Shown here piece by piece: positions 5,901-58,400 of a stretch of 64,000 nt of DNA. Source of the stretch: Ditylenchus dipsaci (lineage: Eukaryota; Nematoda; Chromadorea; Rhabditida; Anguinidae). Both the position numbers and the translations under genes were made by a program. Each line of letters begins with the position of its first letter. Positions within the stretch are counted from its first letter, which is position 1. The notes under the pieces are model-generated. The model was given only the letters and a program-made list of their open reading frames with translations. It did no database searches and was not told the origin of the DNA. The stretch covers positions 744,001-808,000 of the forward strand of contig SADC01001184.1 in assembly GCA_004194705.1 (NCBI GenBank), given 5' to 3'.

Positions 5901-8900
5901 ACCAAAAATAAAAATTAAATTCATCAAAGATCCCTAAAATGTGAGTTTTGAAAATCGCAGTTATTTCACAAAAATGCCTATAACTTTCACTGTATCGATT
6001 TTTTTGAAGCATACTTCACGGCATCTGAAAAATCACATTCTGCGCTAGAAAATAACGTGTTACGTTATTATACGTGCCTCCCAGCCCGACTCACAATACA
6101 GTGTTATAAGTCCGTCTGAGGAATATAAGGATTTTAAGGATTATGTTTTAGATAGCATATTCGTAAGCACTGCACACCCTGTAAAGACAATAAAACATTC
6201 TGTGTTTTTTAAAGTATTAAGAATAGTTTTGCACTATTTTCTGTCCTATTTGTTCGAAAAAAATTTCAAAAGGCGCGCATTTAAATTTTTGGTCAAAAAT
6301 TTTAGTGATATTTTGTATTTTTGTTCATATCTTCGAGTTGGTTCATGACAAAATCATATTCTATAGTTTATTTTGTAGCTAAACGAACAATCTTTTTTAT
6401 GAATATCAGTTTCTTTCCATACATTCTGAATTTCGAGACCAAAAAAGCATTTCAAAACTACTTTACATTTTTTGAAATATACATTTTTGGGATAAACTTC
6501 TATAATTATCTGTTTTTCTGTGATTTTTTCAAAGACCTGATTATGGATTCATATTCTACATGAGAAACTGGTTCTAAGGTTGCTGTGGTCTGATGTAATC
6601 TATGCTTTCTTATGAATAATTTTCAAATGAGTATAATGGTATGCATGAATTTCTGAACACCAACCCAATTAGTCCACTTAACATTCTCCGGGGTCTAGTG
6701 CATCAAAAGTTTATTGAACTAGAAGAAAACAATACCTTGTTCGACGCGCCACACTTCGAGGATTCGTCCGGTGCAAATAAACTATAGAATATGATTTTGT
6801 CATGAACCAACTCGAAGATATGAACAAAAATACAAAATATCACTAAAATTTTTGACCAAAAATTTAAATGCGCGCCTTTTGAAATTTTTTTTCGAACAAA
6901 TAGGACAGAAAATAGTGCAAAACTATTCTTAATACTTTAAAAAACACAGAATGTTTTATTGTCTTTACAGGGTGTGCAGTGCTTACGAATATGCTATCTA
7001 AAACATAATCCTTAAAATCCTTATATTCCTCAGACGGACTTATAACACTGTATTGTGAGTCGGGCTGGGAGGCACGTATAATAACGTAACACGTTATTTT
7101 CTAGCGCAGAATGTGATTTTTCAGATGCCGTGAAGTATGCTTCAAAAAAATCGATACAGTGAAAGTTATAGGCATTTTTGTGAAATAACTGCGATTTTCA
7201 AAACTCACATTTTAGGAATCTTTGATGAATTTAATTTTTATTTTTGGTCTAAGTGATAATTATTAATCTACAGAAAGATAGAAAAGCTAATTAGAAGCAT
7301 TTATAGTTTTTGAAACACATTAAAATCATATCTGTGAAAAAGTTATAGCCTGATCTAAGTTTGTAGAGCCCGGCATATGGGTCACATGTTTCAAAGGTCG
7401 ATTTGAACCGCTTTTTAGATTTGAAAAGAAAATCTGAAAAAGCCATCGTGTTCTCCATGAAATTCTGCTTCAGAAATGGCAAAAGTCACGCATGAGGCTC
7501 GGAGTGTTAAATTATAGTTTATACGCAGGGCTGCAAAACTTACTTTATATAAAAATCTATACTTTATTTGGGACCCCAAATTTTAAGAACTTTTAAGATT
7601 TTACGTTAAAATATTTATTTATTGAACGCTTGAAACTTAAAAAGCATTGGATTAAATGGTACCTTTTCACGAAAAGTGATCGAATTGTACTTTATTTCGC
7701 AAAATGTACTTTATTCTAGAATTTTGAGTTCGCAGCCCTGTTTTTACGGCTTTCTCATCTAACACCTGTATGTTAATACTATTTTCCAAAAATACAGCCC
7801 AGATCTAAGGACCCTTTTAAGCATCAGGTCTCTTTAACAATTTAAAAAAATTAGCCGAAAAAGTGGGACACAACCGACACGTCATTGCCATAACTCACAA
7901 ACGCAGAATACTGGCCAACAACAAAACTCGCCAACGCAAAAATTCGCTTACGTCAAATTTCGCCAACGGCGAAACTAGCTATCGGAAAACTCGCCAACGA
8001 AAAACTCGCCGAAGAAAAATTCAATTTAACGGCATTCTTGAGACCGGTTATAGCTGGTCGTTAAATCGAATTTTTAGCTAGCAAGTTTTTGTTGCCGAGT
8101 TTTGCCGTTGGCAAGATTTGACGTTGGCGAGTTCTGATGTTGGCGAGTCTTTTGCGCTGCTGAGTTTTTTTGTTGGCGAGTTGGTTACGTCCCGAAAAAG
8201 TATAAGCTCAGGTGTTCGCGAAAGTGGAGTATTTGAGAAAATTCTATAAGAATTTGATTTTGATCAATTTCTTTCACATAACTAGAAAACAGTTTTCCAG
8301 ATTATATGATGGATTTGTGTGACTACAACAAAAATATTTCTGATGGCACACAAATTGACAAAGTCGATGACAACTATCATACAGGAAATTTTGGATCTGG
8401 CGTTCATGTAAGCTGTCTTTATGAAAGGGGTTAGCTGCACAAATCAAATAATGACGCTACTGGAATGTATACCTCCCGAAAAAGACACTGGAATATAACA
8501 CGAGAGAGTCCAAAATGGGCTGAAAACCATGATACCTGTATCATGGTTTTTCGGAAACTTCGAGGAGCTCTCTCCCCCAAATTTTTTAAAGGGACATCTT
8601 AAAGGGCCATTGCCCCCTGTTTTGAATTGTCCCCGCCAATTCAAATTTTCTTGCCTAATCATTCAACTTCTGTACGGATTTTTCAACTTGGTTTCTAACA
8701 AAACAAGGCCTAGAATTTAATTTTAGGTATAGGTTTGTTAAAGACCAAGTTGAAAATTTCGTACGTAAATCCAACGATAAGAAAAAAAAGATTGATTTGG
8801 CGGGGGGCAACCGTTGTCGGAGACGGCAATGGCCTGTTAAAAGGGCAGCATTTCATAATATAAGTCTTGGGTGCTCTCAGAGGCGTATCTATTTCAGAGG

Positions 8901-13680: not shown

Positions 13681-13810
13681 TAAGTACACAAAAAGAGGAG
13701 GAAAAGAGAAATCTACAAAATGTAGGTGGGAATGATGAATGCTAGGATTTAAAACATAGAATTTTAAAACTTTCAAAACATTGGATTTTAAACCTTTTAA
13801 ACGGTTTTTA

Positions 13811-16105: not shown

Positions 16106-16556
16106 GGAAAAATATCAACTCGCGACAGTCTCGACTCGCGACACTCAACTCGCGACACTTTTTTCTACGATTTTTTTTAACTTCTGAAAAAATTATCAAA
16201 CATTTGCCAAAAAGTCTTTTGAATACCAACGTTTCATACCAAAATGTCTTTCTGAACCGAATCTGTTGAGATCAGATCCGAAAATTTTCAGGGAGCTGAG
16301 ATATCCTTCAAATTGGGTAAGTGGTGCAAATTTCAAGGTGGTCTGTTCAAAACAGATATATCTCAGTCCCTGTGGTTTTGTTGACTTGATCTCAACGGAT
16401 TCAGGTTTAGGAAGACATTTTGGTATGGGAAAATGCTACTCAAAAGACTTTTCGGAAAATATTTGACGATTTTTTCAGAAGTTTAAAAAAATCGTCGAAA
16501 ACAGTGTCGCGAGTTGAGTGTCGCGAGTCGAGACTGTCGCGAGTTGATAACCGTCC
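16106..16556. mobile_element. Tandem-word element, word AACTCGCGACA
   Basis: Three copies of (A)CTCGCGACA at the left end (16118-16160) and three complements TGTCGCGAG at the right (16503-16545). Inner arms are also complementary (GATTTTTTTTAACTTCTGAA). Flanked by the exact 8 bp CTTAAGAT on both sides (16098-16105 and 16557-16564), a clear target-site duplication. Outer ends are GGAAAAATATCAACTCG and GGACGGTTATCAACTCG. No transposase. Confidence 0.85.
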
Positions 16557-16568
16557 CTTAAGATTGCA

Positions 16569-19400: not shown

Positions 19401-19429
19401 TTTGAGTGTTTACGTGGCGTAGAGTTCCA

Positions 19430-19565: not shown

Positions 19566-21340
19566 GGCTCTAGGTGAATTCATCCAAGGTGAATTCATCC
19601 AAGGTGAATTCATCCAAGGTGAATTCATCCAAAGGTGAATTCATCCAAAGGTGAATTCATCCAACGGTGAATTCATCCAACGGTGAATTCATCCAATTTT
19701 TGTCCCGACACGATTTCTTTTTAAATACGGTATGAAATTCTGTTTTCTCGTCAGTGTTTGTGTTGTTGCATTGTTTGTTGCGGTTGTTCGTGTTTTTTAT
19801 GATCTCTTTAAAGGGCATAGCCGTGCCCGACACGGAGAAAAGGCGCGGACCAGCACTATTTTTCTTTCTAGATCAAGTTTTACATGCGTTTTTATCCAGA
19901 TTTTTTAACTTTTCTTTCTAGTTTTTTAAACTATTATAAGGTCATCAATATTAGATTTGTCGCAAAACGAGTGAAAAATGGGGCGATTCAAAAAAAATTG
20001 CTGGACCAGGCCTTAACTTTTTTGAAATGCACGGGTATGCTCTTTTAATTTATTCACTAGAAAAGGAGCTCCGGCCAAAAGCCGGTGCTAGAACTTTCGG
20101 GTGCCACATGTGCCTTAACCGGGAAACGGTAAATTCGCTGACAGTAAATTCGCCGACAGTAAATTCGCCGATACGAATTCGCCGACAGGTAAATTCGCCG
20201 ACAACCTTTCAATTTCTCACTAGGGTACGTGGTTATGCTTGAATACACTAAAAAATATAAGATTTGAACATAGTTTTTTAACTGGGGTAATTGGGCAAAA
20301 ATAAGGTATGCGCCCGAGTGGGTTCGAACTAGCAACCTCTACATCACCCTTTAGAATCGCTCAGGACTCCATCCGTAGTGACCAAACTAAGTGATCGTCC
20401 ACTTGGATCAAAATTTTTTTTAACGTTTTCGATTTCCAAAGCAGTTTTTCTGCACTAATTCGAGCATGCTGAAGATGGTTTGACAGTGGTAAAATCACGT
20501 TTTATCGATAAATTTAGAGTTATTGCTAACGATTGATTTATCAAAATCAAGAATTCACGATAACTCAAAAATTTCTTGATAAAACGTGATTTTACCACTG
20601 TCAAACCATCTTCAGCATAGTGAAATTAGTGCAGATAAGTTGTTTTGGAACCCAAAACCGTAAAAAAAAAGAATTTTCGATCCAAGTGGACGACCACGTG
20701 GTTTGGTTTGGTCACACTGGATGATGGGATTCTTAGTGATTCTGGGGTGATGTAGAGGTTGCTGGTTCGCATCCACCTGGGCGCATACCTTTTTACCATA
20801 GTTTAAGATATAAAAAGACAAGCGTTTGACTTTTCAGGTCCTCTGGGTGATTATACCCTACTCTGGAGTTACCTGGATATCAACCTGTCCACGTGGTAGC
20901 CGTCCAGGTTAGATTTTGGGTAGGTTAAATCGCGGTTTTGGTTGTATTTGGTTTTGGTGTGCCACGTGGTGTAGGGTCCATTCTGGTGCTTCGTCGTCCA
21001 TCCTAACGGTACAAGTTATTCGCATGGTTCAAGGGCTATTTTGGTGGTTCGGGTGCATTTTCGTGGATCTTGGTCTATCATGGTGGTTGGGCCATAGCTA
21101 CCATACCTGCACTCTTATGAAAAATTGTATAAAAAAATGGTAGAATTGTATAAATTGGTTGGTTGTAATGTCAATAGAATAGGCGGAACGAAAAATATTT
21201 AAAGAAAACGTGTCAAGACAAAAAATTGGATGAATTCACCGTTGGATGAATTCACCTTTGGATGAATTCACCTTTGGATGAATTCACCTTGGATGAATTC
21301 ACCTTGGATGAATTCACCTTGGATGAATTCACCGTCGCCC
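19566..21340. mobile_element. Tandem-word element, word GGTGAATTCATCCAA
   Basis: The left end carries about eight 15-17 bp repeats GGTGAATTCATCCAA (19573-19697), the right end about seven in inverted orientation (21228-21332). The outermost bases are GGCTCTAGG on the left and, complemented, GGGCGACGG on the right. The flanks share the exact 8 bp GTTTTCAA (19558-19565, 21341-21348). The interior has a family-F foldback (20283-20810), an array of GGTAAATTCGCCGACA words (20127-20200) and no recognisable transposase. Confidence 0.85.
20283..20810. mobile_element. GACCACTTGG foldback (family F), copy 2
   Basis: Nested in the 19566-21340 element. Left outer motif GGGTTCGAACTAGCAACCTC, right outer motif GAGGTTGCTGGTTCGCATCC, both like a tRNA T-arm with B box. 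The inner arms are the same as copy 1. Confidence 0.75.
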
Positions 21341-23802: not shown

Positions 23803-24367
23803 GGCTAAGGTTTACAATACCCCCAGCACTCAGGTTTACCTGACCCCCAGCACTCAGGTTTACCTGACCCCCAGCACTCAGGTTTACTTGACCCCAGCAC
23901 TCAGATTGGTAGGAAAGGGACAAAATTTGAAAATGATATCCGATAACCCATAAGTACCCAATTATTTATTATCTCAAGCAAAATACACACACAAGCGATG
24001 AACTTAATCGATATGTTTCATTTGCGAAAATTTGTTTCGCTTATACACAGCAATGGATTTGTCATGAAAGCGAACAGTACAAAAATCTTTGAGCCATTTC
24101 CTCCCCTTCAGTGAGAGACATGATGACAGCGGGATACATTTATCCCCAGCACTCAGGTTTACCTGACCCCAGCACTTAGGTTTACCTGACCCCCAGCACT
24201 CAGGTTTACCTGACCCCCAGCACTTTGAATTGGTGTGGTTGAACCTGCGTGCTGGGGGTCAGGTAAAGCTGAGTGCTGGGGGTCAGGTAAACCTGAGTGC
24301 TGGGGTCAGGTAAACCTGAATGCTGGGGTCAAGTAAACCTGAGTGCTGGGGTATTGTAAACCTGCTC
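23803..24367. mobile_element. Tandem-word element, word CCCCAGCACTCAGGTTTACC
   Basis: Left array 23820-23905, middle array 24142-24225, and complement array 24243-24355. Outer ends GGCTAAGGTTTACAATACC and, complemented, GAGCAGGTTTACAATACC. The flanks share CCATCCTTC (23794-23802, 24368-24376), an 8-9 bp target duplication. The centre (23905-24140) has no ORF. Confidence 0.8.
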
Positions 24368-24664
24368 CCATCCTTCACAGCCAAATTGTTGTAAAGTTAC
24401 CCAAAAACACGTTTTAAGTTACTTCTTCTCTGCTCAATACAATACAAGAAACATTTTTGGACAGTTTCCGATAAAAAAATTAAAACTTTTTCAAAAAAAT
24501 ATTGACTTTAACTTATGAAGTCAAGGCCAGATGGTCTGTTTAGGTAATTTTCATCACATTTTTGACTCAACTTTGATCAGATATAACAAAAAGTGATATG
24601 TTTCGAATATTTGTTACCATTGAGGGCTAAGAAGAAGTGGCATGAAAATGTATATGATGATGTA

Positions 24665-33556: not shown

Positions 33557-34382
33557 CATATATAAAAGACTAACGTTTGACCTTTCAGGACATTTGGGTG
33601 AATATACCCCTATTCTTGAGTTGCCTGGATAACAACCTGTCCAGGTGGTACTCAACCCTAGATTTGGGATCGGGTAGGTGAAATCGCACTTTTGGTCTCA
33701 CCAAATCCAATTATTCACAAATTTTTTTGGTTGGAGAAATAGATTTTTTTATTCAAATGAACTTTTTGATTTTTAAGACATCCAGGTGGGCATTCACCTG
33801 GTCAGGTGATACCTACACCAGGTATTGAAGTTGGAGTGTGTAAAATCGCAACTTTGGGCTTGACAAACCCAATTCCCCACACAATTTTAAGTTAGAAAAA
33901 ATGGCTTATTTTTTATTTTTAAGAAATTTTAATTTTTTAGGTTTGGGTTTGGTTTGGGTATTTAGGGTGGTACTTTGGGTGGTTTAGGATGGTTTGTGGT
34001 AGTTTGGACACCATCTGAAGATATCAATATACCTAGATCCCACGTTGAAATCAGTAAGAAACAAAAAAAAATCGGCGTAAAAATGTCCGTCGGAAAAACC
34101 TCTAATCTACCAGAATATTGAGAAAAAGGAAAAATACAAAAAGGCAGAAAAGTTCTTAACAAATCGGGATTTAAGAAAAGAATGCCTTAGCAAAAAATTC
34201 TTAGCAATTTGTCGCTTAGCAAAAAAAATTCTTGGCAAAACGACCCACGGCCCCTCAAAAACTGCATTCTAGTGCATTAGCGAAATTTGGCGCCAAATCA
34301 AAAATTTTGAAAAACCGCTGTTTTTTAGCTTATTTTATCCAGCACTTCTGGTTTTACTTTTTTCGCTGTACCTCATGTAAGT

Positions 34383-36215
34383 TTATTGTCAAAAAACTCA
34401 CCACATTCAGCGCTTTCGAACAAGCTATCACTTGCCCGATAAACTTAACGAATTTCAAAACTAGAAGAGCTTTTCATGAATATTTCCGAAATTTTGGTTC
34501 GATTTTTTTGACTTGATTGATATTAGCGATGTTTTTTTGACAATACATTGCTGAACCAAGACTTATGCCTGATAGAGGAGTGAATTTGCTGCATCTTGCT
34601 ACCAAGGACATATACAAAAATACAAATTTCGGGTGTCTTATACAAAAGTTAGATGGGAAACGCAAAAACCCCTATTTTTACTCGGAAAAATGCCAGTTGT
34701 TCGCTTCAAACGGTCTCTAGTTTCTAAAATAACATCTTCACGAAATTCGGCTCAAATTTTCGAGTAGCTGAATGTATGGGCTACGTTTTGGTGTATAGAA
34801 AAGCTCTAAAAATGCAAATTTGGAGCATCTCATGCAAAAATAAATTCTTCGTTTTTTAGAGCTAAAGATGGTCGCCACCAGAAGAATGTGCTCCGAGTCA
34901 GATGGTTCGTCTTTATCTGAAATTCGTGCAACTGCAGCCAAGAAAAAATGGGAAAATCAAAGGCTGAAGAAACAGAAACTAAAGGAAGGCAAAATTCAAG
35001 CTGCCGAACGAGCAATGATGATGCGTAGAGCTTGTCTATGTAAGTAAATTTTTGGTCGTTGTATTTTCCAATGTTTGCGAAATTTTGGAAACATTAAGAT
35101 TTTTGTAGCAAAATTGGCCGAAGAAAAGAAAGAGCAGTCAAAACATACTCAAAATGATGTCGAAGCCAAGGCGTTTCTTTAGCTAAACCGTCGCTTTGAA
35201 AGTCAAGTGCACGTCCAACGAATTGTTTCGAATTCGTCCGGCAGTTGGAATACTCGAACCTCAAAGGAATGAGGATGTCAAAGTAAGTCATTCATCTTCT
35301 TTAATGACCGGTTCCACACTTACCTATTCAGGTGATCTTCAATGCATGCAAGATCCTTCCGGAAGACAGCAAACACTACTCCGTCGTCTACCATATCTCT
35401 GCTAAGAATGATGTCAGTGCCAAGAAGAGAAGGATGTATGGGGAACTACGGGCAACTATGTGAAACTACTACTCGTGTGGCGCTTACAAAGGAACTCCAA
35501 CGGCTGCTCTAATTCCATCTCCTGTCGCCTCTACTCCTGATGAAAGTAATTTCGTAGTTGGATCCATTAGAGTGTCGATCGATCACGATCCAGTCATGTA
35601 CTGTTGTTCAGGTTAGATAATTCTGTAGTCAGTATTGTTAGGCTCTACACACGAACTACGAATTCAAGTCAAAAGACCATAAAAACATGTTTTTTGGTCA
35701 TTTTTCACGGAATTTAGCAGCCTGTCTATTTATAAAATGTTTATAAAATCTGCTGCCTAAAGCTTGCAAAATAGTTGGTCCTGAATGGTTGCTTTCGGAT
35801 GATATATAACTTGCTTGACGTCGAACAAAAAAGGTGGACAAAAACCCTCAGGGTAAGACCTAGTCCGGTTGAAGAACAGTCTAGTTGAAGAATTGGCAGT
35901 TAAAGAATATGTGTAAAACCCGTTGTCATTCTTTTATTCAGCTTTTCTTTCAGATTGCAATCACGACAATGTATTATTATAAGCTCCAAAGATCCAGTTC
36001 GTTCTCCTGAATGTGGCTGCAGAATCCTTTACAGGAAGCGTGGGCAAAGAAGTCAGTTAATTTTAGCATGAATTAATCGTGTGCATACCTCATTTTACAA
36101 TTGTTTAGTGCTGATGTATGACGCTCGATGAAGAGGTTGATATGATCCATCAGAAGAAAAGTTCCTAAGGCACCGTTCTTGCACATTTGTTATCCGCTAT
36201 ATTCATTTCAATAAA
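34383..36215 (+). CDS. MSP/VAP-domain gene, probably damaged, inside a transposon
   Basis: The MSP domain is an immunoglobulin-like fold of nematode sperm protein and VAP proteins. Pieces: 34400-34470 reads F-S-A-F-E-Q-A-I-T-C.I-N-L-T-N, like the first half of the fold; 34868-35039 and 35109-35177 give a basic coiled-coil-like stretch (K-K-K-W-E-N-Q-R-L-K-K-Q-K-L-K) starting with an ATG after a TTTTTTAG acceptor; about 35180-35282 reads V-A-L-K-V-K-C-T-S-N-E-L-F-R-I-R-P, and 35332-35463 reads V-I-F-N-A-C-K-I-L-P-E-D, the second half. Entry to 35180 needs one extra A in AAA at 35185-35187, or there is an intron I cannot see. Downstream (35464-36120) open stretches are unassigned. AATAAA lies at 36210-36215. 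How the pieces join is unresolved; it may be a captured pseudogene. Confidence 0.55.
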
Positions 36216-36677
36216 AAATTTACTTTAAACATTTGACTTTCTCGATATCTTTTGCATTTGACTTATTTTATGGCGAAATTCGACGCTGCACCACCTTGGT
36301 TGTATGGTGTGCTATGTGTTATAGAAAGTTAATATGGTGTAACTTTTTCGAAACTTTCGAAAAGTTCATATTTTCCTATAAAAAATTACGGGGAAAAAGC
36401 AAAAAAGAAAAAACCAATAAATTTCGAAAAAGACTCTTTCAAAAATCTTGGCGTTTTGTTTATTTTTAAATGCACTAGAATGCAGTTTTTGAGGGACCGT
36501 GGACAGCTTAGCAAATCGACCACTTAGCAAAATGCCGCTTAAATTTCGGGGTACAGCCGTTTTTCGTGGCAGAAATAATCTTTTCGTGGCATATTTCAGC
36601 CTTTTCGCAAACTAAATCAGTTTATGCCGTTTTAAAATCGATTGAAATTGACAATTTTTGGGAACCCTGTCCAAAAT

Positions 36678-38135
36678 GGGCAATACTTTTTTTGTACCAA
36701 ATTTACTTTTTTTGTACCAAAGTTTTTTGTTTTGCCTTTATTTCTTTTTTGATTTTTTCGATCGTTTTTACAAAGTGAAAAGACTTTCACAAAGAGAAAA
36801 TACTTCCACAAAGAGAAAAGACTTTCACAAAGAACAAAAAATTTTACAAAGAGAAAAGACTTTCAGACGCTACTGGCTTATACCCCCCCAAAAAAGCTAC
36901 TTTCTTATACCCCCCCGAAAAATCGGACCTACTGTCATATACCCCCCCAAAAACCGACTTTTTTGGGAGTGTCTAAAACCATTTTTATGCAATAATTTTG
37001 CCATAAAGGGACCAGAAAAGCAGTTAAAAAGGGATTATGGGCTGTATTGGGATGGGAAGGGAATAATACAGGGGCCACTTTTTTTAGCTGCTTTACCATG
37101 TTTTTCAACTCGGGCGTGGCAAAAATAGACTCTATATGCATTTTATGATCAAGTGTACTTCTCGGAATCATGTCTAAGGTAAGTGCGTGCGCGCATCTCT
37201 AACTCTCAAGCCCCCTGCGCCCCGAAGAGGTCGCAGGGGGCTTGGGGGCTTGGAGTTGAGATGCGCACACCCACATACCCTAGACACAAATCACTCTAAA
37301 GTGACTCTGGGTGCATGAAAAAACATGCATACCAGAGTTATTCATGCGGTAGGCCCCAGTACTCAAAACTATGTTCAACATCTTTGATTTTGCGACGAAA
37401 AGGGTTTACCCCCTCTTCAGGCCTGGGGCTACGAGCCAGAGGCTCAGCCGTCCAAAATTTACACGACAACCATCGGGATCCACCCGGCTGATCGGTCCGA
37501 TCATTTCGAGTCCTTATACTTTTACGTGCACCACAAGTGGCTGGGTTTGAAAGTGACTTTACGCTAAGAGAATTAATACTCTTTGGTACTTATAGGCACT
37601 ATAGAAGTGGCCCCTGTTTTGTCACTTCCCCTCCCAATACAGCCCTTGAACCCTATTTTAATTGCTTTTCTGGACCTTTTATGGCGAAATTATTGCTTAA
37701 AAATATGTTTGACCACTCCCAAAAATCTTGATTTTTGGGGGGGGTATAAGCCAGTAGGTCCGAGGATTGGGGGGGGGGGGGTATAAGAAAGTAGCTGTTT
37801 TTGGGGGGGTATAAGCCAGTAGCGCCGACTTTCAAGTAGTCCTGCGATTCTAGTTTCTTATGAAATATAACTTTTTGCAATATATTATCGAAATGCTCTA
37901 CAAAAAATCGAAAGTATGCAACACGTCAGAATAATAAGTTAGTTCACACTTTTGGTATTTTCTTAAAATTTTTGAAAATATCTTGCAAATAGTCATATGT
38001 CGTTAGAAACTAGAATTGTAGGGATACATGATGGTGTTAGAACTTTGCACAAAAACTTCAAAAATTATAGAGAAAAAAGCATAAGAAAATTTGGTACAAA
38101 AAAGAGTAAATTTGGTACAAAAAAAAGTAATGACG
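36678..38135. mobile_element. Tandem-word element, word TTTGGTACAAAAAA
   Basis: Left end GGGCAATACTTTTTTTGTAC with two word copies (36688-36722), right end with two inverted copies (38089-38125) closing GTAATGACG. The flanks share GTCCAAAAT (36669-36677, 38136-38144). Next to the left end is an array of CACAAAGAGAAAAGACTTT (36775-36860). A family-D foldback (36866-37826) fills the middle. Confidence 0.8.
36866..37826. mobile_element. G/C-tract foldback (family D), copy 3
   Basis: Ends GGCGCTACTGGCTTATACCC with several C-run repeats (CTACTGGCTTATACCCCCCC appears repeatedly at the left; complements at the right). The core hairpin with CCCCCTGCGCC lies at 37210-37245. The arms belong to the same subfamily as 48035-49013, not to copies 1 and 2. 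Confidence 0.75.
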
Positions 38136-38167
38136 GTCCAAAATTACAGAAAATTGGTTTTGATCAT

Positions 38168-39023
38168 GGCATAATATGTTTTGGTTCACCAAAAAGATGA
38201 AATATGCCACCAAAAAGATTATTTCTGTCAGCAAAAGGAGTTGCCACCAAAAAGATGAAATCTGCCACCAAAAGGATTATTTATGCCACCAAAAAGATTA
38301 TTTCTGCCACCAAAAGATTATTTCTACCGCCAAAAAGATTATTTCTACCGCCAAAAAGATTATTTTTGCCACCAAAAACTAAAATTGGCCATAAAAAGGC
38401 TGACTAGTACCATGTAACGTCTATAGTGTATGAGCTTATATGTTTTTTCATAGCAAAATATGCCCGAAACGGGTTAAAAAATGACTCGAGCGACGGTCTT
38501 TAGCTGGTATATACCGTAAATCCTCTATAGAGCCCCCCCCCTCGATATTTGACTAGAGTTTCAGAATTAGCACCATTTTTGATTGAAAATTTCAAGATTT
38601 TTCAGGGATTGAAAAATAAAGCCCCCGGGCTCTATTAGAGGATTTACGGTACTTACTCATGACTTATTTTCTTTTTTTTCATGTTATAATCTCGGACTAG
38701 GTGACAAAACTTCAGAAGTAAGATGCAGCCAAGAATGTCCGAAAATCGGGGGAATAATTTGGCTTAATTTTTGCTACGAAAGTACTTTTCGGCACCGATC
38801 TCTGAAATCAGCCATGAAAAAGTTCATTGATAGTAACCCGTTTCGGGCATATTTTTCTACGAAAAAACATATAAGCTCATACACTATAGACGTTAAATGC
38901 TACTAGTCAGCCTTTTTATGGCCAATTTTAGTTTTTGGTGGCAGAAATAATCTTTTTGGTGGCAGATATAATCCTTTTAGTGGCATATTTCATCTTTTTG
39001 GTGAACCAAATCACTATCCGCCC
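38168..39023. mobile_element. Tandem-word element, word CCACCAAAAAGATTATTTCT
   Basis: Left array 38185-38390, right array inverted 38935-39005. Ends GGCATAATATGTTTTGGTTC and, complemented, GGGCGGATAGTGATTTGGTT. The flanks share TTTGATCAT (38159-38167, 39024-39032). The framework matches the 32029-36628 element except that CACGAAAA is replaced by CACCAAAA in nearly every copy. A TACCG-family element (38512-38651) is nested. It ends about 140 bp before the OPA1 start codon. Confidence 0.85.
38512..38651. mobile_element. TACCGTAAAT-family element, word AGCCCCC
   Basis: TACCGTAAATCCTCTATAGA with GCCCCCCCC at the left; GCCCCCGGGCTCTATTAGAG then ATTTACGGTA at the right. Interior GGTTTCAGAATTAGC / TTTTTCAGGGATTGAAAAA as in other copies. 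The end is TACCGTAAAT here rather than TACCGTATTT, and the change is present at both ends. Confidence 0.8.
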
Positions 39024-42100: not shown

Positions 42101-45100
42101 TTTAGATAGTTATTTTCCGATTTTTTAGTAGTTGAAGAATAACTCCCCATTTGGACAAAATAAAGGAACTATTTAACTTAATAAAGGAAGTGGTTGTGTC
42201 ACTTTGTCCTAGTCTCTCCCAAGAATTGTCTAGAGGGGGTTGAGGCGTAGTGAAATGCAGCCGAAATCCTCCGGCTTTGTCTTTTTTTAATCGTCTATGA
42301 GGCCTAATAAGAGAACTCGGGTATGTTATGGTCCCCAACGATAAAGTGGGTTGCAGTCTTTTTGTAAATTTGGCATCCAAGACTGGCCAGAAAACCAAGA
42401 CCAAGATTTCTAGACAGGACCAAGCAAGGTTCCAAGACAAGGTTTTTAGTCAAAATTGGGGCAAGACAAGATCTGGTCTTGTTTCTGTCTCTACTTTTTA
42501 TCGCTTTTGACATCCATGATTTGCACCGAGAACAGGGGCTCTACCCTTATTCTTCAACCTACAGTCCTCCACCGGTAAATTCTCGACCAACAAATTATTC
42601 AACCGGTAAGTTCTTCAACCGGTAAGTTCTTCAACCGGTAAGTTCTTCGACCGGTAAATTCTTCAACCGGTAAATTCTTCAACCGGTAAATTCTTCAACT
42701 GGGTTGTTCCCTATATATTGATAAAACGGGTAATTCTTCAACCTACTATTCTTCAACTGGGTTGTTCTTCAACTAAATTAATGGAATCAAACTGGAACGC
42801 TAATTGAGATGAGATCAGATGACGCTAGTAGCGAATACCCTTCCCCCAAGCATCCGACCTTTAAAAATTGCTGTAAATACCCTTGCAAACAACAAGTTTA
42901 GGCTTAGCCCTTAGGCTTGGGGGTAGGCCAGCGTACGGAAGTTGTGACCAATGAAGAGTTTGCGCACATTTTCCGGGTCTGGGACATAAATTTGGATACT
43001 TTTTACTAAGTAAAAAAGATGAAAATCGTTGGGGGTATCCGCTACTAGCGTCGATCAGATAATTGAGTGAAATTCAGATAAAAAGGATCGAAGAACAACC
43101 CAGTTGAAGAACAGCTGGTTGAAAAACTAACCGGTGAAAAACTAACCAGTTGAAAAACTAACCGGTTGAAGAATTTACCGGTTGAAGAACTTACCGTTTG
43201 AAGAATTACCGGTCGAGAATACGCGGTTGAAGATTAAGGGTAGAGCCAGAACAGGTCTTTTTGCAGCAACAATATATACGGTAGGAAAAAGTCTTTTCGG
43301 TAGCAGAAGAAAGCGTTGTCCTATTTGAAAATGTAGCGGCTGCACCTAAGAGTACCGCCCTGTTTACCCCCAGCGGGTATAATTTCTTCACTACAAAAAT
43401 TGTTATTTAGAGATGGAATTTTGAAACCCTCCAAATGACTACTCGTAATATGTCGCTAGCAGTATCAGGTTGGTTAGATATTCCTCCCGCAGTAAGCATT
43501 TATTCTTTGTATTCTAGATTGTTTTTGGCGCATGGTTCGTTTGATTAAATCTTAATTTTCGGCAGTATTGGTAGTTAAATTAAGGTGCGAGACTCAATTG
43601 AAGCGCAAGCTGATGCATTCAGGGCTACGCGATTTAACCTCGAGACTGAGTGGAAAAATACATTTGGAAGATTTAGAGAGTTGAATCGGGATGAACTCTG
43701 TGAGTTAAAGCCATTTATAGTTTTCTTTAACATTTATTCAATATTCAGTTGAAAAAGCACGTGGTCACATATTAGACGGTGCCTTTTCGTTTTTCCAAAA
43801 TTATTTTCCGAGTAATTAAGAGCGCTTTTAGAGATAGTGAACCTTTCTTTGGTGGGAGCTGATGATTGGGAGTCTCTATTGAAAAAGCAGCTGCGAAAAG
43901 CCATATCTAGTCATGTCCTCGATCACATTCTGATGCCAGCATCGTCAGTTGATAATGCGGGATCGTTCAACACGCTAATCGACATAAAGTTGAAGCATTG
44001 GGCCGATAAAGAGCTGCCACTAAAATCGCTTGCTGTAGGCTATTTAGTGATTTATTTTTCTTATTGATTGCCAAGCTTGTAGATTGGATGGGAAACGCTC
44101 GCTCAAAAATTTCGAGACCAAATTAAAGGAGGGGATGATAAAAATGAAAAGATTTTCGAGCCTCTAAAGAATGCTGTCGCAGAAGCCGCAGTAGAAAAGC
44201 ACACTTGGGACAACAAAGCATTGGACTATCTTCGAATTATTCAGCTTAATGCAATTGCAGGTGAGTATTTTGTTCTTCAAAGAATTAGGATTGCTTTGTT
44301 TGAACATCTCATTTAGATAGACTGGTGCCCGATCGTCGTTCCTGGGTAAACTTTGACGTGCTAAAAACTTTTTGAATTTTTTTATACTGCTCGTTCAAGC
44401 TGCATTGTTTTAATTTAGACAAATCGTGCAAATTTATGGGTGATGTAGCGGCCGATTTGTTGGTGGAGGTTAATAACTGGCTTGAAAAGTCTCGAGGTCC
44501 ATCCTTATTCCAACGGTGGACTAGCTGGCAGAGTAAGCTGCACCGATTATGCTTTTGATCATTTTATTTTTTTCTAGGCGTGTCGCATGGTACGTCAGTT
44601 TTCCTTCGAGAATGTCAATTTTATTTTATAAATTGTTGTTTTAAGAGCAAAGTATCAATCAGGCTGTGCAAAACGAGCTCAAAAATATTTTGTCCAGCAA
44701 CCCTGTAATCCACATTCTGATTTTTTAGCTACTCAGCTACTTATTGTTTGACTTAATTGCAGGATCACAAACAGTCTTTGATGGACGATGATGTAACGAT
44801 TGTTCGACGAAATTTAGAGACGAAGCACCTATCTGATGTTCCGAATGAAGTGATAAGGCAGCAGTGGCGCATGGTCTTCAGGCAACACTTTCTTGTAAAT
44901 TTTTTTCGAAAATTTGCAGACTTTTGTATCATGAACTTTAAGGAAAGGATGCTGCAATCAAGTCAGGACTGTCAGAACTTTTACCAGGTGCGGTTATTTT
45001 AGAATTTTATTAGGTTATTTTTTAATGCGCAAGCAGCTTTTTTATAGAATTACAAGCAAGGTTTTAACGATGCCGATATTGATTGCCATGCTGTCGTATT

Positions 45101-49400: not shown

Positions 49401-52400
49401 GAAGAATTGAGTACAAATGAGGGCTTGAGTGAAGAACATTCCCCGCAGAGTGCTCGGATGAAGAAGATAACCTCCTATTCGTGTTTCTCGACTTGATTTC
49501 ATGAAAAAGCAGGCTGTTTTTTTGATTCTGAGACAAAAAATTTCGAACCACAGAGGGCCCCAATAAGTTAGCTCGCTACACATTGCAAAAAGAAAACTTC
49601 AAAAAATTAAGGGACCCAAAATTAATCTTCGGAGGGGGGGGGGCGGTCACTTGGGCTTTCATTATGCTTCACTCAATTTTTCGCTAGTGACCAGTATCAT
49701 CATGTCATTCAATTTTGCATTTTTCCATTTCTTACCAAAACACCACCATAGCAATGAAATTTCATGCAAAAAAGCATTTGAAGCTGTAACAAAAACAAAA
49801 AGCGGATGGAGAGAGTCGAACTCGAGAGCATCACCACGACACTAACTCACTACCCACTCCACCACCAGTCGTATATTTGACTGGTACTATAAAACTATAT
49901 TTTTTTCAATGCAGCTATATATTTTCAAACGCATTTTCAACACTTTAAATTTAGCTCAGTGCAAAAACGGATGTCTAAGTCTAATAAGGATTTTTGAAGA
50001 ATTATGGAATCGTATATACCGTTTGTCAATAGGCCACGGAAACTATTTGAGGTTCCCTGGTTAGAAGATGTTAAAACACTATTATCATAGTTCACCAAAA
50101 AAGGCCGCCCCAAGTAAACAAGTGCCCTCATTTTTGCTACTCAACGCGATAAAAGAGACATTTCTAACAAAAAAAAATTATTTTGCAAAAAAATTGCTGC
50201 CAGGGAATGACGGGCGTGCGGTCAATTGGTCCACGGTCAATTGGTCCACGGTCAATTGATCCACGGTCAATTGGTCCACAGGTCAATTGCTCCACAGGTC
50301 AATTGCTCCACAAAAATATTTTCAAATTAATCTTTTTTGTCTTGTGAAGAACTTCTGTTATTTTAACAGTTTTTCGATAATTCAGCCTTAACCCTACTGG
50401 TTAATCCACGCACCAACCAAACCAAGTGGTCATCCTTTGTTGTTAAATTATTTTTATGTTTTTCGGGTTCTAATACCTGTTTCTTACACTAATTCGAGCA
50501 TTCTAAAGAGGGTTTGATAATAGTTTCAGGAGTAGAAGTGCCTAGGTAGTAGTGCTTGGCTGGTGGTTGTTTCTAGGTGGTACCCAGGTTGTTTATTAGA
50601 CCATTTTTCATTGGTAGCTCGATCTTCTGGATATTCCAAGTACCAACAAAAACCGAGTGGTTGCTCAATTTTTTATGTTTTTAGGTTCCAAAAACTGTTT
50701 TCTGCATTAATTCGAGCATGCTAAAGATGTTTTGACAGTAGTGAATTCACGTTATACAAGATTTACAAAAACTGTACACGGATAAAAAAATTCCAGTGAG
50801 ATCCACCTAATTCCTCCTGGTTCACCACAAATCACCAGTGGGAGTGCCATCGGATGCGTGAGGGAATTCGGTGGTGTTCCAGTGGCAATAAGGTGGGATT
50901 CCAGTGGAATTTAGGTGGTATTCCACTGGAATCGAGGTGGTATTCCACTGGAATCAAGGTGGAATAACAGTGAAAAAAAGTATACCTGCCACTGTCCGGA
51001 TTCGCATCGACCACCGAGTGGTAAGACCCTGAGCCACTACCCACTGAGCCAACATGTCGTTTTAATGTATTGAGGTTATTAGACGCCTATATACTCAATT
51101 TTTGAAATAATGAGTCTTTCGTTATTGAATGTGCTTTATTGGTGTGGATGAATGCAATCAAGTGATATAACTAGTGAAATTGAAGAATTAACAAGTACAA
51201 CAGCAGGAGATATTATTTGACTGACTTTAGCAATTTTATATTTAATGGGAATTATGGAGTATGAATCTCAGAAACGAAATTATATTTGTTAACACAGGAA
51301 CGGCTGTACGTCCTGATAGTATGTCCTTGTGCAGAATTTCACGCTGAGCACGATGGTGAAAAAAATTGAAAAAAAGTAACTCTACGGTGGTCAGCGGCCT
51401 TTGTGAACCATCAATGTCACGACTTTTGCCTATGCACTTCAAAGAGGTAAAGAATGCCACTGTTTTAATATATTTTTTATATTTCATGTGCAAAAGAAAG
51501 CGCAGATTGCGAGCTTTCAAATGACATATTGTGGAGGTATTTTATGACAATCATATGATAATTTTTTGGCTCATAGAAACCATTGTGTTTTTTTTCAAAA
51601 ACGTTGTTCATACAAAAATATGTACAAATAAATGTGGAAAGGCCGTTTTTAAATTTATGGTTGATACTGTTCGATAGAGCAAGAAAAACTGCACCAGATA
51701 GTGCTTTAAAGTAGCCTGCAACCAAGCTTTTTGAGTGTTTAGCAAAGGTTCAAACGTAAATCCCAAAATGCATCTTGACCTGAAACTTCGATTTCGCTAC
51801 ATAAATCTGAAATTCTGACACTTGATTCGAGTTCAGCATGGTCGATTTACTTGAAAAACTGTCAATTGATTATCCAATCATTGTCAAATTTCAAATTCCG
51901 CCGAGACAAAAATTATTTAAATTCAATATTTTTCAAATTTCAAATAATTTTTGTCTTGAGCGGAATTTGAAATTTGACAATGATTGTGATAATCAAGGCT
52001 CAAATTGATTTCACACCCCAAAATACTGATTTCCCGCAGTAAATTTATTTTTTCCCGCAGTAAATTTGAATTTCAAACAAAGTACTGATTTCCCGCAGTA
52101 AATTACTGATTTCCCGCAGTAAATTTCGCGGGAATTCGTATTTTATAGTGAAAAATGACTTGGATCGCTCAGAATACCACCCCCGAGTGGCCAGGAGCCC
52201 TGAAAGTTGGTTTTTTGGGGTTTACTAAAGCGGGGTAAACTTTTTGCAAAAATTCGATTGAGCGGATCAGATTTCGGGTCCAATGGGCTCAATTGCTCAG
52301 GTTTCCACCTTAATTATTCTCAACTATCTTAACCAACCTAAGCACTGATTTAGGGTAGTTAGATACTGGTCTGGAGCAGTTTGGGATGGTTTAGGGTGGT

Positions 52401-55400
52401 TTAAGATGATTGAGAATGGTTAAGGGTGGAATCCTGAGCAATTGAGCCATCGGACCCGAAATCTGATCCGCTCAATCGATTTTTCGCAAAAAGTTTACCC
52501 CCCCTTTAGTAAACCCCCAAAAAACCAACTTTCAGGGCTTCTGGCCACTCGGGTGGGATTTTGAGCGATCCAAGTCATTTTTGACTATAAAATCTGAATT
52601 CCCACAAATTTACTGCAGTATTTCACCGAAAATTCAAATTTGGCGGGGTAAACGAGTATTTTTGCTCAAAATTCAAATTTGGCGGGGTGAAAATAATTTG
52701 ACGGGGTAAATCAGTAATTTGGCGGGGTAAATTAGTTACAGCCTTTTCACGTCAAGCACGTCGGACTGGAATTCTGATTAGCCCAATCGAATTTTTGCAA
52801 AAGTTTAGGCTGGAGTTTAGAATGTGACCTTTTTCTAAAAATGGTCAAAATCAGTTTTTTTAGTTGTGTAACATTGTAAAAAATGCTCAGCATTCATTTT
52901 TATTGTTGGGAAAGCCAATTTTTCAAAAAAAAAATTTTGTCGAAAATTGTCAAAAAACGTTATATGCTCCTTAAATACCTGTTTTTCTTGTATAAAATAA
53001 GCCTAAGCCTAAGCGGTACTTATGCGGTTCCCCCCCCATATCGAAATTTTCCCAAAACAGGTATTAACCATTTCTAAGCAATTCTTACACGTTAAAACCG
53101 ATAAAAACGTTGTTTCCGACCACATAAAAATACAGAAAAGGTTTTTTTTTCCATCAGACATTTTGACTTTTTCACATTTTTTACCTGCCTGCCTTCGGCA
53201 GGCACCCTAATTCAATAGGAAGCCCCTTTGGGGTACATTGTTCGGGCCAAGGCTGACCCTTTATACACACCTGCCTGCCTTCGGCAGGCACCCTAATTCA
53301 ATAGGAAGCCCCTTAATTTCGATATGGGGGGGGGGGGGAACCGCATAAGTACCGACTAGCACTTCACATAAACGAATTATATCGTAGAAAGGGGATGACT
53401 TTTTCTTAAACACTTATTTTTATACAAGAAAAACAGGTATTTAAGGAGCATATAACGTTTTTTGACAATTTTCGACAAAAATTTTTTTTTTTGAAAAATT
53501 GGCTTTCCCAACAATAAAAATGAATGCTGAGCATTTTTTACAATGTTACACAACTAAAAAAACTGATTTTGACCATTTTTAGAAAAAGGTCACATTCTAA
53601 ACTTTAGCCAAAGTTTACCCCCCTTTAGTAAACTTCCTAAAACCATCTTTCAGGGGCTCCTGGCCACTCGGGGTGGTATTCTGAGCGATCCAAGTCATTT
53701 TTCACTATAAAATACGAATTCCGCGAAATTTACTGCGGGAAATCAGTAATTTACTGCGGGAAATCAGTACTTTGTTTGAAATTCAAATTTACTGCGGGAA
53801 AAAAATATTTACTGCGGGAAATCAGTATTTTGGGGTGTGAAATCAATTTGAGCCTTGATTATCACAATCATTGTCAAATTTCAAATTCCGCTCAAGACAA
53901 AAATTATTTGAAATTTGAAAAATATTGAATTTAAATAATTTTTGTCTCGAGCGGAATTTGAAATTTGACAATGATTGTGATAATCAATTGACAGTTTTTC
54001 AAGTAAATCGACCATGCTGAACTCGAATCAAGTGTCAGAATTTCAGATTTATGTAGCGAAATCGAAGTTTCAGGTCAAGATGCATTTTGGGATTTACGTT
54101 TGAACCTTTGCTAAACACTCAAAAAGCTTGGTTGCAGGCTACTTTAAAGCACTATCTGGTGCAGTTTTTCTTGCTCTATCGAACAGTATCAACCATAAAT
54201 TTAAAAACGGCCTTTCCACATTTATTTGTACATATTTTTGTATGAACAACGTTTTGAAAAAAAACACAATGGTTTCTATGAGCCAAAAAATTATCATATG
54301 ATTGTCATAAATACCTCCACAATATGTCATTTGAAAGCTCGCAATCTGCGCTTTCTTTGCACATGAAATATAAAAAATTATTAAAACAGTGGCATTCTTT
54401 ACCTCTTTGAAGTGGCATAGGCAAAAGTCGTGACATTGATGGTTCACAAAGGCCGCTGACCACCGTAGAGTTACTTTTTTTCAATTTTTTTTCACCATCG
54501 TGCTCAGCGTGAAATTCTGCACAAGGACATACTATCAGGACGTACAGCCGTTCCCGTGTTAAACAGGGTTTTTTAATTTTTTGCTGTATGCTAATAAGAA
54601 AATCATAAAATCATGTATAACTCAGGATTGTAACGAAAATTGTGCTAGACTTTCCATGATAAAAAATATACAGTCGACGCTCGATTTGAACGACCTGCGA
54701 CTCGCTACAATTGTGACTCGCTACAATTGCGACTCGCTACAGATTGAATTTTCTATTGTTATGTGGTACAGATTGTTGTACCAGACCAATTGTTGGCCGC
54801 TTCGCGGCCAAGACCAGCACACTCCACATTGCAAGGGATAGGGGAACATGTAGTACATGTTTTTGGGTGAAATGGACAAAAAGTTAAAGTGTAGCGAGTC
54901 GCAAAAAGTGTAGCGAGTCACAATTGTAGCGAGTCGAAGTTTTACCCTCGATTTAAGGACAGCCTGGGTACGGGCAACACTGTCCTTAAATCGAGCTGTC
55001 CTTGTATCGAGCGTCCATGGGTCGTAGACTTTAGGCCCTTTTTTCCATTTGTGGAAAAAAGGGCCAAACGACTTACGTAAGTCGTTCGGCCCTTTTTTCC
55101 ACAAATGGAAAAAAGGGCCAAACGCCCCTACGCCGCGTCCATATATCGATTTTTATTTATTTGAAAACCAAAACCAACAAAATTCTGTGTCCTTAAATCG
55201 AGCGCCGACTGTATAAAGATTTTTAATGAGGACAAAATAATACTTAACCAAACAGCTACGTGATAAAAAATACATTCCTGGTATAAAAAGGTTAAAATAA
55301 CATTATTTTAGTGTCAACTACGATAATTGGATAAAAATTGCCACTGGAATACCAGTAAGTCACAAATTCCAGTGGATTACCACTGGCATTCCACTGGTAA

Positions 55401-58400
55401 ATTGCTAGATTTCCACCAAATTGCCACTTGTATCGAATATTCCAGTGGATTGCCACTGGAATTCCAGTGGTAAATTGGTGGATTCCACCAAATTGCCACT
55501 AAATGAGCGATTTACCACTGGAATGCCACTGGCAATCCACTGGAAATTCATACTTTCTGGCATTCCAGTGGGAGTTACTGGTTGGCCAGTGGTCATTTAG
55601 TGTCTTCCACTGGACTTCATTTTTCCGTGTAAAATAGGCGTTAAGCGAATTTATCGACACCGAATTCATCGATACCGAAATCATCCACAAATTTTTTTCC
55701 TGGCACAAAATATTTTTAAACATTTTTCTGTGCAACGCCGGATCTGTGTCCATGTACCAACAAAACCAAAAATTTTGATCCATGTGGACGACCACTTGGA
55801 TCAAAAAAATTTTACGTTTCTGGGTCCAAAACGTGTTTTCTGGACTAACTCAGGCATGCTGAAGATGGTTTGATAGTGGTAAAAGGACGTTTTCTCGAGC
55901 ATTTTTATAGTTTTGTAAAATCGAGTTTTGGTGAAGTCAATTTTATCCAATTACTCGAAAATACCATGAAAAACCTTATTTTTCTATTATCAAGCCATCT
56001 TCAGCGTGTCCGAATCAGTCCAGAAAACAAGTTTTGGAACCCCAAAAAGTAAAAAAAATTTGATCCAAGTGGACGACCACTTGGTTTTGTTGTGCCCAGG
56101 TAGTCGTACCCAGGTTGGAGAACTCAGGTAGTGTACTGGTACCCGGGTAGTAATATTGTCGACTTGTAAAGAACTTTCAAAATTTACAATGTTTTTCTAT
56201 GATCCAACCTCAATTTTCATGGATAATCTATGCACCGACTAAACCAAGTGATCGTCCACTTGGATCGATTTTTTCACGTTTTATGTTGCAAAATTGTTTT
56301 TTCTGGAATAATACGGGCGAGCTGAAAATGGTTTGATAATAGTGAAATATGGGTTTATGGAATATTTTTTGAGTATTGGGGAATAATTGATTTTACCAAA
56401 ACTCTATTTCACCAAAACTCAGAAAATACTCGAGAAAATGGCATTTTACCACTATCAAACCATCTTCAGCATGTCCGAATCAGACCAGGGAACGGGTTTT
56501 GGAACATAAAAAACGTGAAAAAAAAATTCGCTCCAGGTGGACGACCACCTGATTTGGTTGGTGCGTGGATTAACCAGTAGGGTTAAGGCTGAATTATCGA
56601 AAAACTGTTGAAATAACAGAAGTTCTTCACAAGACAAAAAAGATTAATTTGAAAATAATTTTGTGGAGCAATTGACCTGTGGAGCAATTGACCTGTGGAG
56701 CAATTGACCTGTGGAGCAATTGACCTGTGGACCAATTGACCGTGGATCAATTGACCGTGGATCAATTGACCGTGGACCAATTGACCGTGGACCAATTGAC
56801 CTAGAGCCGGAATGACGATGTCGAAGTAAAGCGATATCTGGATCAATTATTTATTGATTTTGTTGCGTGTTCCACTGTTAAGAAAATTCCAAATGAAATG
56901 TTAAAAATTTACAGGAACCCCACCTTTTCAGATAATTTTTTCCGCTATTTTGTTCAGCTTGAAATTCTGAACAAAATGCTCTCATTAGGGCTGTATTGAT
57001 CTTCGGCATTCCCCGTTTCAAAAAGCGCCATTTTCAAAAGTGTCCGTTTACGTCATTCCTCGTTTTCGGCATTTCTGCTTTGAGTGATATGAGTTGAACT
57101 GACACCCTTTGGGACAACTTTTTCTCGAGATTTTCATTTTTCTCGGAAAAATTAATTTAGAAATTTCTCTTTTTCGAAAACATTTGTTTGGAAATTTGCT
57201 AATATCGGGGACCACTGTCTTCAACCACTTTTTTAGGATATCCTTGTTAAAAGAGGCATACCAGCGCGTTACACTGCAATTAAGGCGGGACCAGCAATTT
57301 AATGCTCTCATAACTGTTTTCTATGAGGGTTCTTCGTGATCAAACGAAAGTTTTCTGCCTAATTTTTAAAAGTAGGTTAGAGGGGCATGCTCGCCGCCGA
57401 TGGAATATTTTTTGATTACTCATCATCCGTAGAGCACTCAACAGAAATAATTTCAAAATAATTCTTTTTTGAATTGGCCTGGTACAGTCAACCCTCGATT
57501 TAACGTCACCCCCCTCAAGTTCGTTCCCACCTAGGGTCCGACACTTTTTTTAACCTAATTTTTGAAATCTTTTGCCAGTTGTCTTCGGTCAGTATAATCG
57601 CAAATATCGCAAGGATTTTAATTTTGCGATCGTTTTTGTGAATAAAAACAATTTTGCCGAAAGACTCGCGGGTACTCGATTTAACGTCACCCCTTTCTCA
57701 AAATAGGTGCATTTCTTCAAATATTGAAAACGCTGAAAAACCACCAGGAAAGGCCTTTTTTGAAAAAACTAAATTCAGAGACGTGTTCAGCGTGAAAAAC
57801 TGCCCAGGGTAAACTGTCGTTGCAGTAAGGGCTTCTCGTGTTAAAAACAGAAATTTATGGGGAGGGGAGGTGGTATTCTCTACTAGGGTCAATTTTTTTT
57901 TCAGAAAATGCTTAGAAATGTCTTTTTTTTTATCATGTTGAGCAGAAAAAATGAGTTTGGGAGGTGATTTGGTCACTTTTGAAAAACCGAGCACACAGTC
58001 CACGCTCTTTTTAACATAACTATATTTAGCAATCTCTATTTAACATAATTTTAAAATTTGGAGATTTGGTTCGGACATAGCTAAATTATGGGAAAGCGAA
58101 GCTCCATTCAACACGAGGTTTTCAGCGATTCCATGAATTATGTTAAATGGAGCGTGGACTGTATGGGGGGACTATAAAAGTGCCGAATTTCAGCACAAAA
58201 TAAATTTCAGCACTTGATTGGAGAAATCTCAGTGAAAAAAGAATTGCCACCAGTATATTTTAATAAATGAAAGTTTTTGAGCTCGCACTCAAGATATTCA
58301 GGTCATTCTTCTCACCATGGACGTATCTTTCTCAAACGCCGGGCAATTTCCTGGTAGTGTTAAAGCATTTATGAGAGGTGAAGCTGGAGTTCCGGTCAAA

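Follow-up and report, generated by a model that had tools for sequence, protein, structure and literature searches.

FLYWCH fingers and tandem end words in probable MULE foldback transposons of Ditylenchus dipsaci

Ten foldback elements whose ends are built of tandemly repeated words lie in a 64,000-nucleotide stretch of the Ditylenchus dipsaci genome (GenBank assembly GCA_004194705.1, contig SADC01001184.1, positions 744,001 to 808,000; this whole stretch is called the window here, and its elements are named by their start positions). These elements and their relatives elsewhere in the assembly are most probably foldback MULEs, which are cut-and-paste transposons of the Mutator-like superfamily, and small non-autonomous derivatives of them. 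In the class with GGTNAATT-type words (the GGTNAATT class), each family appears to combine a transposase with an end word of its own, the FLYWCH finger of the transposase most likely binding the word, and each end word is probably a transposase binding site. Five kinds of observation carry this account, namely a transposase gene inside elements, words common to families, constraint on the word cores, covariation of finger and word, and a difference present in all units of an array, and from these we infer binding of the word by the finger, selection, and an order of events. A preliminary description of the window had taken the words to be properties of single element copies and had suggested a process that rewrites all words of one element together. 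Genome-wide counts were made on the assembly of 226,978,389 bases in 1359 contigs, and the loci read letter by letter (L numbers; 294,471 letters, overlaps included) amount to ~0.13% of the genome.

All ten window elements show the foldback layout of long inverted ends built of tandem repeats (Table 1). Comparison of 130-bp arms within each element gave a match in 10/10, in keeping with the earlier statement that the word returns inverted at the other end, and the left tip starts with GG in all ten, the right tip of the 36678 element being without a GG start. Element ends were set by eye and then searched over ±8 bases, and the same procedure was applied to random pairs of ends; direct repeats of 8 bp or longer were found in 10/10 elements and in 218 of 20,000 random pairs, which bears out the claim that these are inserted units with 8- to 9-bp flank duplications. 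The longest match was 8 bp in three elements, 9 bp in six, and 10 bp in one, with some of the longer readings overlapping tip bases; the 10-bp repeat obtained for the 7865 element by the longest-match search takes in bases of its tip. Between elements, the best arm matches were 70 to 75% (19566 and 50213) and 76 to 85% (32029 and 38168), the values that involve the right arm of 32029 and the 32739 element arising from the overlap of these nested arms. The claim of near-uniform words within an element held for 19566 and 50213, where uniformity is very high, but not for 7865 (68% matches) or 32029 (76%), where it is low. By reading, GGTNAATT-type words occur in only the 19566, 50213, and 42537 elements, and the words of the seven other elements are unrelated to this type.

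Five elements among the loci read carry transposase pieces, i.e., L049 (3.9 kb), L059, L060, L062 (3.7 kb), and L061 (3.4 kb), and each has words, duplications, and 7-bp tips that differ between its two ends. Putatively autonomous relatives with MULE transposase genes, which the preliminary description had proposed to look for, do therefore exist in this genome. In L049, a MULE core lies between the word arrays (PF10551; E 6.9e-6; 26.9 bits, just missing the cut-off of 27.6); this core, used as a query, gave at least 150 matches in the genome, and a genome search with the PF10551 profile gave 115. A FLYWCH finger sits in front of the MULE core. Both domains exceed the Pfam cut-off in protein P0002 (MULE, 49.1 bits), with FLYWCH N-terminal to MULE, and the cut-off was passed by FLYWCH in L061, P0002, and P0005 and by MULE in P0002 and P0004. 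L059 holds finger and core, both under the cut-off, in one open frame of 317 amino acids, and a Ulp1 protease piece that exceeds the Pfam cut-off (PF02902; E 2.5e-10) follows the core. By eye, the finger of the Ditylenchus dipsaci proteins P0003 and P0005 is letter for letter the same as fingers read here, and the proteins closest to a transposase of this genome were from Ditylenchus dipsaci in six of six matches. The inverted ends of L059 and of L060 are in each case identical over 124 bp, suggesting recent movement. In L061, whose family word is GGTCAATTCGTCC, a motif that we take to be OTU-protease-like, without a Pfam match, was read at 2825-3076, past the core, at the place taken by the Ulp1 piece in the L059 family; families may differ in the protease that follows the core.

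Given the FLYWCH finger and MULE core of these relatives, the elements are therefore placed in MULE/foldback families. The catalytic domain was found inside elements of the GGTNAATT class, and duplications of 8 to 10 bp flank 10/10 window elements; outside the window, duplications of 8 bp or more were found in 16 of the 21 elements examined. The superfamilies hAT, P, Merlin, and KDZ had been entertained from the duplication length, with no search aimed at them, and were dropped once MULE and FLYWCH were found. Membership of 19566, 50213, and 42537 is indicated by the word, tips, and duplications that they have in common with transposase-bearing elements. For the seven other window elements, no transposases were found, the MULE domain having been seen in GGTNAATT-class elements only, and their membership is proposed from tip bases, layout, and duplication length only.

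Genome-wide family counts, which cover the words of 19566 and 50213 out of the ten window elements, revealed 311 exact matches (167+144) for the doubled 19566 word and 668 (415+253) for the doubled 50213 word, with 0 for each reversed control, while three copies of GGTNAATT at word spacing gave 2071+1864 matches (control, 2). Both words counted are thus genome-wide families, and the idea of copy-specific words was rejected. Two outcomes had been named beforehand as speaking against that idea; high-copy word families were found for the two words counted, and missing 8- to 9-bp duplications, judged at occupied sites, were not. The usual GGTNAATT-class element has a 7-bp tip at each end and then two to many words of 15 to 16 bp. 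One tip reads GGCTCTA (or GGCACTA, GGCATTA) and the other GGGCGRC or GGCGTGC, a layout found exactly or with one base off in 14 of the 15 elements with a duplication in the first round outside the window; L043, L046, L051, and L052 were added after that round, and one of these four has a duplication. Exceptions to the layout are the window element 42537, with GGCTCTA at both ends, and L043, which reads GGGAAAC. In the 19566 family, the spacing is 15 bp for outer units and 16 bp for inner ones, the added base being an A at first and a C after that, and arms within a family carry ordered variants in common. Unit numbers can be very unequal, with 67 units in one arm and 4 in its partner in L054 (868-1937) and 27 versus 4 in L053 (592-1038); nothing therefore holds both arms identical at all times, contrary to what the preliminary description implied. 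These one-sided arrays are satellite-like expansions of a transposon end.

Twenty stretches of 1.3 kb each were fetched from upstream of cores, and a word array together with a finger was present in 16 of them; L070 had an array only, L071 a broken finger only, and L081 and L082 neither. The covariation set of 18 rows was formed from these 16 stretches by removing L074, L075, and L078, whose families were already represented, and adding L040, L043, L049, L059, and L061, with L060 and L062 left out as members of the L059 family. These rows, all from one genome, contain 15 distinct 10-base word cores. Core and spacer were compared in 18 arrays with 117 units, a set that includes L074 and L078 and excludes L040 and L043, and off-majority bases made up 31 of 1170 core positions (2.6%) versus 60 of 468 at the four preceding spacer positions (12.8%). 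Spacers are not homogenised, and cores are kept.

Across 245 column pairs in the 18 rows, the residue X of the finger motif YWXC and word bases 7-8 ranked first (normalised mutual information, 0.82), a value reached in 0/1000 shuffles, followed by X with base 7 alone (1/1000) and by the residue two positions past the strand tryptophan with base 9 (22/1000). R at X goes with TC in 11/11 rows, and TC occurs in 0 of the 7 other rows, where H is found with AC (three rows) or CC (two), C with CC (one), and I with TA (one). On the best tree, four lineages have an X that is not R, and none of them has TC at bases 7-8. The pairing of R with TC was proposed after ~16 lineages had been inspected, and later checks came out as expected in 16/16 cases, comprising L040 (H, AC), L043 (R, TC), L097 (from the C768 stretch; YWHC with CC, X being other than R), and 13 A- and C-type fingers (seven A-type, six with I and one with T; six C-type, all R). 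These 16 checks are not independent, since the H clade includes L040 and L097 and just two families supply the A- and C-type fingers. L098 (C439 stretch), fetched to test the GCCCCTC word, had no finger and was uninformative; L092, with an R finger and an array of unknown type, was excluded from the counts, and a further A-type array at C1252, whose adjoining partial finger match misses X, stands outside the A-type count.

FLYWCH is akin to the WRKY-GCM1 fold. A search of solved structures returned FLYWCH1 (2rpr) at no better than E 0.073. An AlphaFold model of P0002 (six sequences) was of low confidence (mean pLDDT, 53) and was not used; in it, the two candidate residues lie by residue count on neighbouring strands, which is not relied on here. 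A natural recognition code may underlie the covariation, a proposal to which we give slightly less than an even chance. In such a code, X of YWXC would read bases 7-8 and X of YWkX would read base 9; after a change of specificity, selection would exchange the matching base one unit at a time in all copies of the array, with spacers staying as they were. The pairs would be R and TC, H and AC or CC, C and CC, and I or T and TA, over at least 15 word types in FLYWCH-MULE transposon families of common descent.

The clearest comparison is offered by the A and C families, two close families that have a common spacer order (CCN repeated, AACG, TCG, TCG) and whose units hold AATTCATATACA or AATTCATCTACA. 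The arrays of L067 and L060 align without gaps over 107 columns. They differ at 11 of these, 7 being the same base in 7/7 units; the 4 others comprise 2 in spacers and 2 at the first core base. Beyond the array, 72 of 803 columns differ. The spacers would not have survived regrowth of the array from one mutated unit. The view that related words do not reflect random decay from one ancestor is thereby upheld, and as for the proposed joint rewriting, the units of an array do change together, but what shares a word is the family, supplied by putatively autonomous transposons, and not the copy. Genome-wide, AACG arms number 48 of A type and 42 of C type. Among the first 100 of 936 neighbour pairs listed, a hand count gave 44 A/A, 50 C/C, 6 C with T, and 0 A with C, and A followed by another base accounts for 8 pairs genome-wide versus 936 in all (A-first order counted). 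All eight A-type fingers read have I (L067, L083-L087, and L089) or T (L088), and R was found in 9/9 fingers read from C-type elements (L059, L060, L062, L090, L091, and L093-L096), the strand of L062 reading YRRC; the C-type arm assigned to the finger is 1.9 kb away in L094 and ~3.1 kb away in L095, within the presumed element. The array of L070 (1048-1150), near a core with no finger between, is mixed, being mostly A-type with one G and one C, and is possibly an intermediate or a decayed copy.

Several observations weigh against the account of finger and word given above. Many transposase copies are broken, with a stop within the piece read in L062, L086, L088, L095, and L096, and some copies are therefore dead; in L059, the finger reaches 11.8 bits (cut-off, 23.6) and the core 15.2 bits (cut-off, 27.6). 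No duplication was found in 5 of the 21 elements outside the window (L044, L046, L050, L051, and L052). In L044, L046, L051, and L052, which belong to the GGTCAATTGNTCCAC family, the sequence beyond the two tips forms an inverted repeat of at least 40 bases that hardly varies among these four elements, and their true ends must therefore lie further out; each is either a larger composite element with outer ends or an inverted end pair now mobile as one. Mixed cores were read in L068 (three TC and two CC units), L072 (one of three differs), and L049 (AC and CC). Once the four-row H clade is cut to one row, the value for X and bases 7-8 is reached in 89/1000 shuffles (15 rows, family-wise), and with L067 dropped as well in 30/1000; after the same reductions, the base-9 pair stands at 252/1000 and 236/1000. 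The tree is weak, X changing four times and the word bases five times, and the single independent X contrast on well-supported branches cannot reach significance; for the base-9 residue, three independent contrasts on supported branches all run in the expected direction and likewise cannot reach it. With so few supported contrasts, phylogeny is therefore a real limit on the covariation evidence. The A/C switch, moreover, may be one historical event.

Shared ancestry, in which a single finger and a single word were passed down together in each family and matching changes hitchhiked, draws on this weakly resolved tree with its one supported independent contrast and on the close kinship of the four H-clade rows; it is doubtful but keeps some weight. 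Hitchhiking, however, does not give the same base in seven spaced units against a background of 72/803, and in the four lineages with X other than R on the best tree, bases 7-8 are never TC. Neutral concerted evolution by slippage, unequal exchange, and inter-arm conversion, with no part for protein recognition, would account for the great expansions to 67 and 27 units and for the ordered variant patterns shared by the arms of a family, yet it predicts spacers as uniform as cores, which the figures above (2.6 versus 12.8%) contradict; the A and C families differ at the same base in 7/7 units but retain the order of their spacers without gaps, and word bases follow a finger residue. We thus consider it unlikely.

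The words might also be targets of another element-encoded protein, e.g., a VANC-like anti-silencing factor, rather than of the transposase, since VANC targets, as far as the source consulted describes them, are often tandem motifs whose units co-diverge and which are unlike between relatives (PMC5735166). That is quite improbable, since it is the finger that covaries in these elements, and in L059 the finger shares the 317-residue frame with the transposase core; the words lie immediately inward of the 7-bp tips at either end, and scans of a few element pieces recognised neither a second DNA-binding family nor an anti-silencing protein, a weak negative. Least credible of all is the dedicated process of the preliminary description, rewriting every word of a single element copy; near-pure arrays and related families that differ by all-unit changes agree with it, but words are family-wide where counted, arm lengths are unsynchronised, and mixed arrays exist (L070, and 8 mixed pairs genome-wide). 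No special rewriting machine is needed, and the most economical explanation is selection on transposase binding, perhaps together with short-tract conversion.

Under selection on transposase binding, the finger would dock on the words at both ends and the core would cut at the tips, with insertion producing the 8- to 9-bp duplication; several words per end would offer several binding places for the transposase. As the finger drifts in specificity, copies with matching units would move more, and selection for binding would remove and replace off-type units until all units match, base by base. Slippage, unequal exchange, and conversion would alter unit number and help new units to spread, and copies that lose the match between finger and word would become fossils.

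Some further features of the window and of the loci read were recorded. Within the 19566 element lies a second word array, of GGTAAATTCGCCGACA, which was found again in L015, L035, and L056 inside 19566-family elements and may be either a nested element passed on to copies or a set of double ends. Inside the 50213 element, an inverted pair (51289-52243 and 53610-54562; ~955 bases; 97.9% identity) is presumably a younger nested insertion. Two exons of a voltage-gated chloride channel on the plus strand were recognised by Voltage_CLC matches at 5224-5643 and 10074-10460 (30.6 and 29.9 bits), and between them lie the 7865 element and further inverted repeats. A minisatellite with a 29-bp unit occupies 59450-60004 on the minus strand, inside a long open frame, and in L045 (2967-4284) a long minisatellite array, also in a long open frame, reads as a YTISRVTLYRG-like repeat.

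Table 1. Foldback elements and word arrays in the window, and possibly composite loci elsewhere (TSD, target-site duplication)
Feature	Positions	Strand	End word	Tips	TSD	Remarks
Foldback element	7865..8193	.	~ACTCGCCAACGACAAA (16 bp)	GGGAC..GTCCC	GAAAAAGT	arms 7910-8010 and 8091-8182
Foldback element	16106..16556	.	~TCAACTCGCGACAC (14 bp)		CTTAAGAT
Foldback element, probably MULE-type	19566..21340	.	GGTGAATTCATCCAA, 8 units left, 7 right	GGCTCTA / GGGCGAC	GTTTTCAA
Left word array of 19566 element	19573..19698	+
Second word array within 19566 element	20129..20203	+	GGTAAATTCGCCGACA
Right word array of 19566 element	21224..21333	-
Foldback element	23803..24368	.	AGGTTTACCTGACCCCCAGCACTC (24 bp)		CATCCTTC	TSD 8 bp, longest match 9 bp
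Foldback element	32029..36628	.	~GCCACGAAAAAGCTGAAATAT (21 bp)		GTTTTAAAA	interrupted by 32739 element
Element nested in 32029 element	32739..36558	.	~TAAGCGGTCGATTTGC	GGCTGTACCCCG both ends	GTTTTTCG	TSD 8 bp, longest match 9 bp
Foldback element	36678..38136	.	~TACTTTTTTTGTACCAAATT		TCCAAAAT	TSD 8 bp, longest match 9 bp
Foldback element	38168..39023	.	~CACCAAAAAGATTATTTCTGC (21 bp)		TTTGATCAT
Foldback element, GGTNAATT-type word	42537..43247	.	~GGTAAATTCTTCAACC	GGCTCTA both ends	AGAACAGG
Foldback element, probably MULE-type	50213..56808	.	GGTCAATTGNTCCAC, 6 units left, 9 right	GGCGTGC / GGCTCTA	GGAATGACG
GGTCAATTGNTCCAC-family element	L044 660-2117			GGCGTGC both ends		inverted flank outside both tips
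GGTCAATTGNTCCAC-family element	L046 694-2009			GGCGTGC both ends		inverted flank outside both tips
GGTCAATTGNTCCAC-family element	L051 2118-2831			GGCGTGC both ends		inverted flank outside both tips
GGTCAATTGNTCCAC-family element	L052 1103-2372			GGCGTGC both ends		inverted flank outside both tips

The nearest known system is the Mutator/Foldback family Tm1 from root-knot nematodes (Gross and Williamson 2011; PMC3169594), which, according to the parts of that paper available to us, resembles the present elements in its asymmetric 7-bp motifs outside the repeat, its FLYWCH and MULE transposase, its ~14-bp tandem units of variable number, unequal between ends, its 8- to 10-bp duplications, and its many small derivatives. 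By reading of the published motifs, tip and word sequences differ; moreover, each species has a single unit consensus in Tm1, whereas 15 distinct 10-base cores were found here in 18 rows, and a residue-to-base match is not described in those parts (PMC3169594). The Phantom subclass is alike in domain layout, with FLYWCH and MULE, and some of its members have foldback-like ends (PMC3169594). In the available text, aphid Phantom is said to have a minisatellite after the transposase gene and Rehavkus one before the 3' end (PMC6446971). Galileo, a foldback element of the P superfamily, is similar in that some of its long-end tandem repeats hold transposase (THAP) binding sites, and binding across its subfamilies is weak or absent; unlike the elements here, it has a THAP finger, a P-type transposase, and long repeats, with sites in two of four repeats, as far as the excerpts consulted go (PMC3688188, PMC3573991). 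In VANDAL/VANC of Arabidopsis, a MULE-encoded DNA binder and tandem motifs likewise change together and differ between relatives, but VANC is anti-silencing, and the motif change is ascribed, in the portions seen, to tandem repeat formation (PMC5735166), whereas the gap-free alignment of the A and C families shows a single base differing in every unit and spacers that are largely conserved. Within the titles and partial texts searched, no residue-to-base match in a transposase finger, no all-unit change with spacers kept, and no comparable number of word families in one genome were met, and titles and abstract beginnings gave no recognition code for FLYWCH fingers.

A binding-site role for the tandem repeats in Foldback and Phantom ends was called untested in the available part of a 2013 paper (PMC3688188), and the covariation of finger residue and word bases now makes such a role of the words directly testable. 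What began as an odd repeat pattern becomes a data set on joint changes of specificity in a transposase and in the numerous sites that it presumably binds. The A/C pair provides a near-minimal natural experiment in this respect, with I for R at one finger residue and one base changed in all units, and a recognition code for FLYWCH fingers is hinted at.

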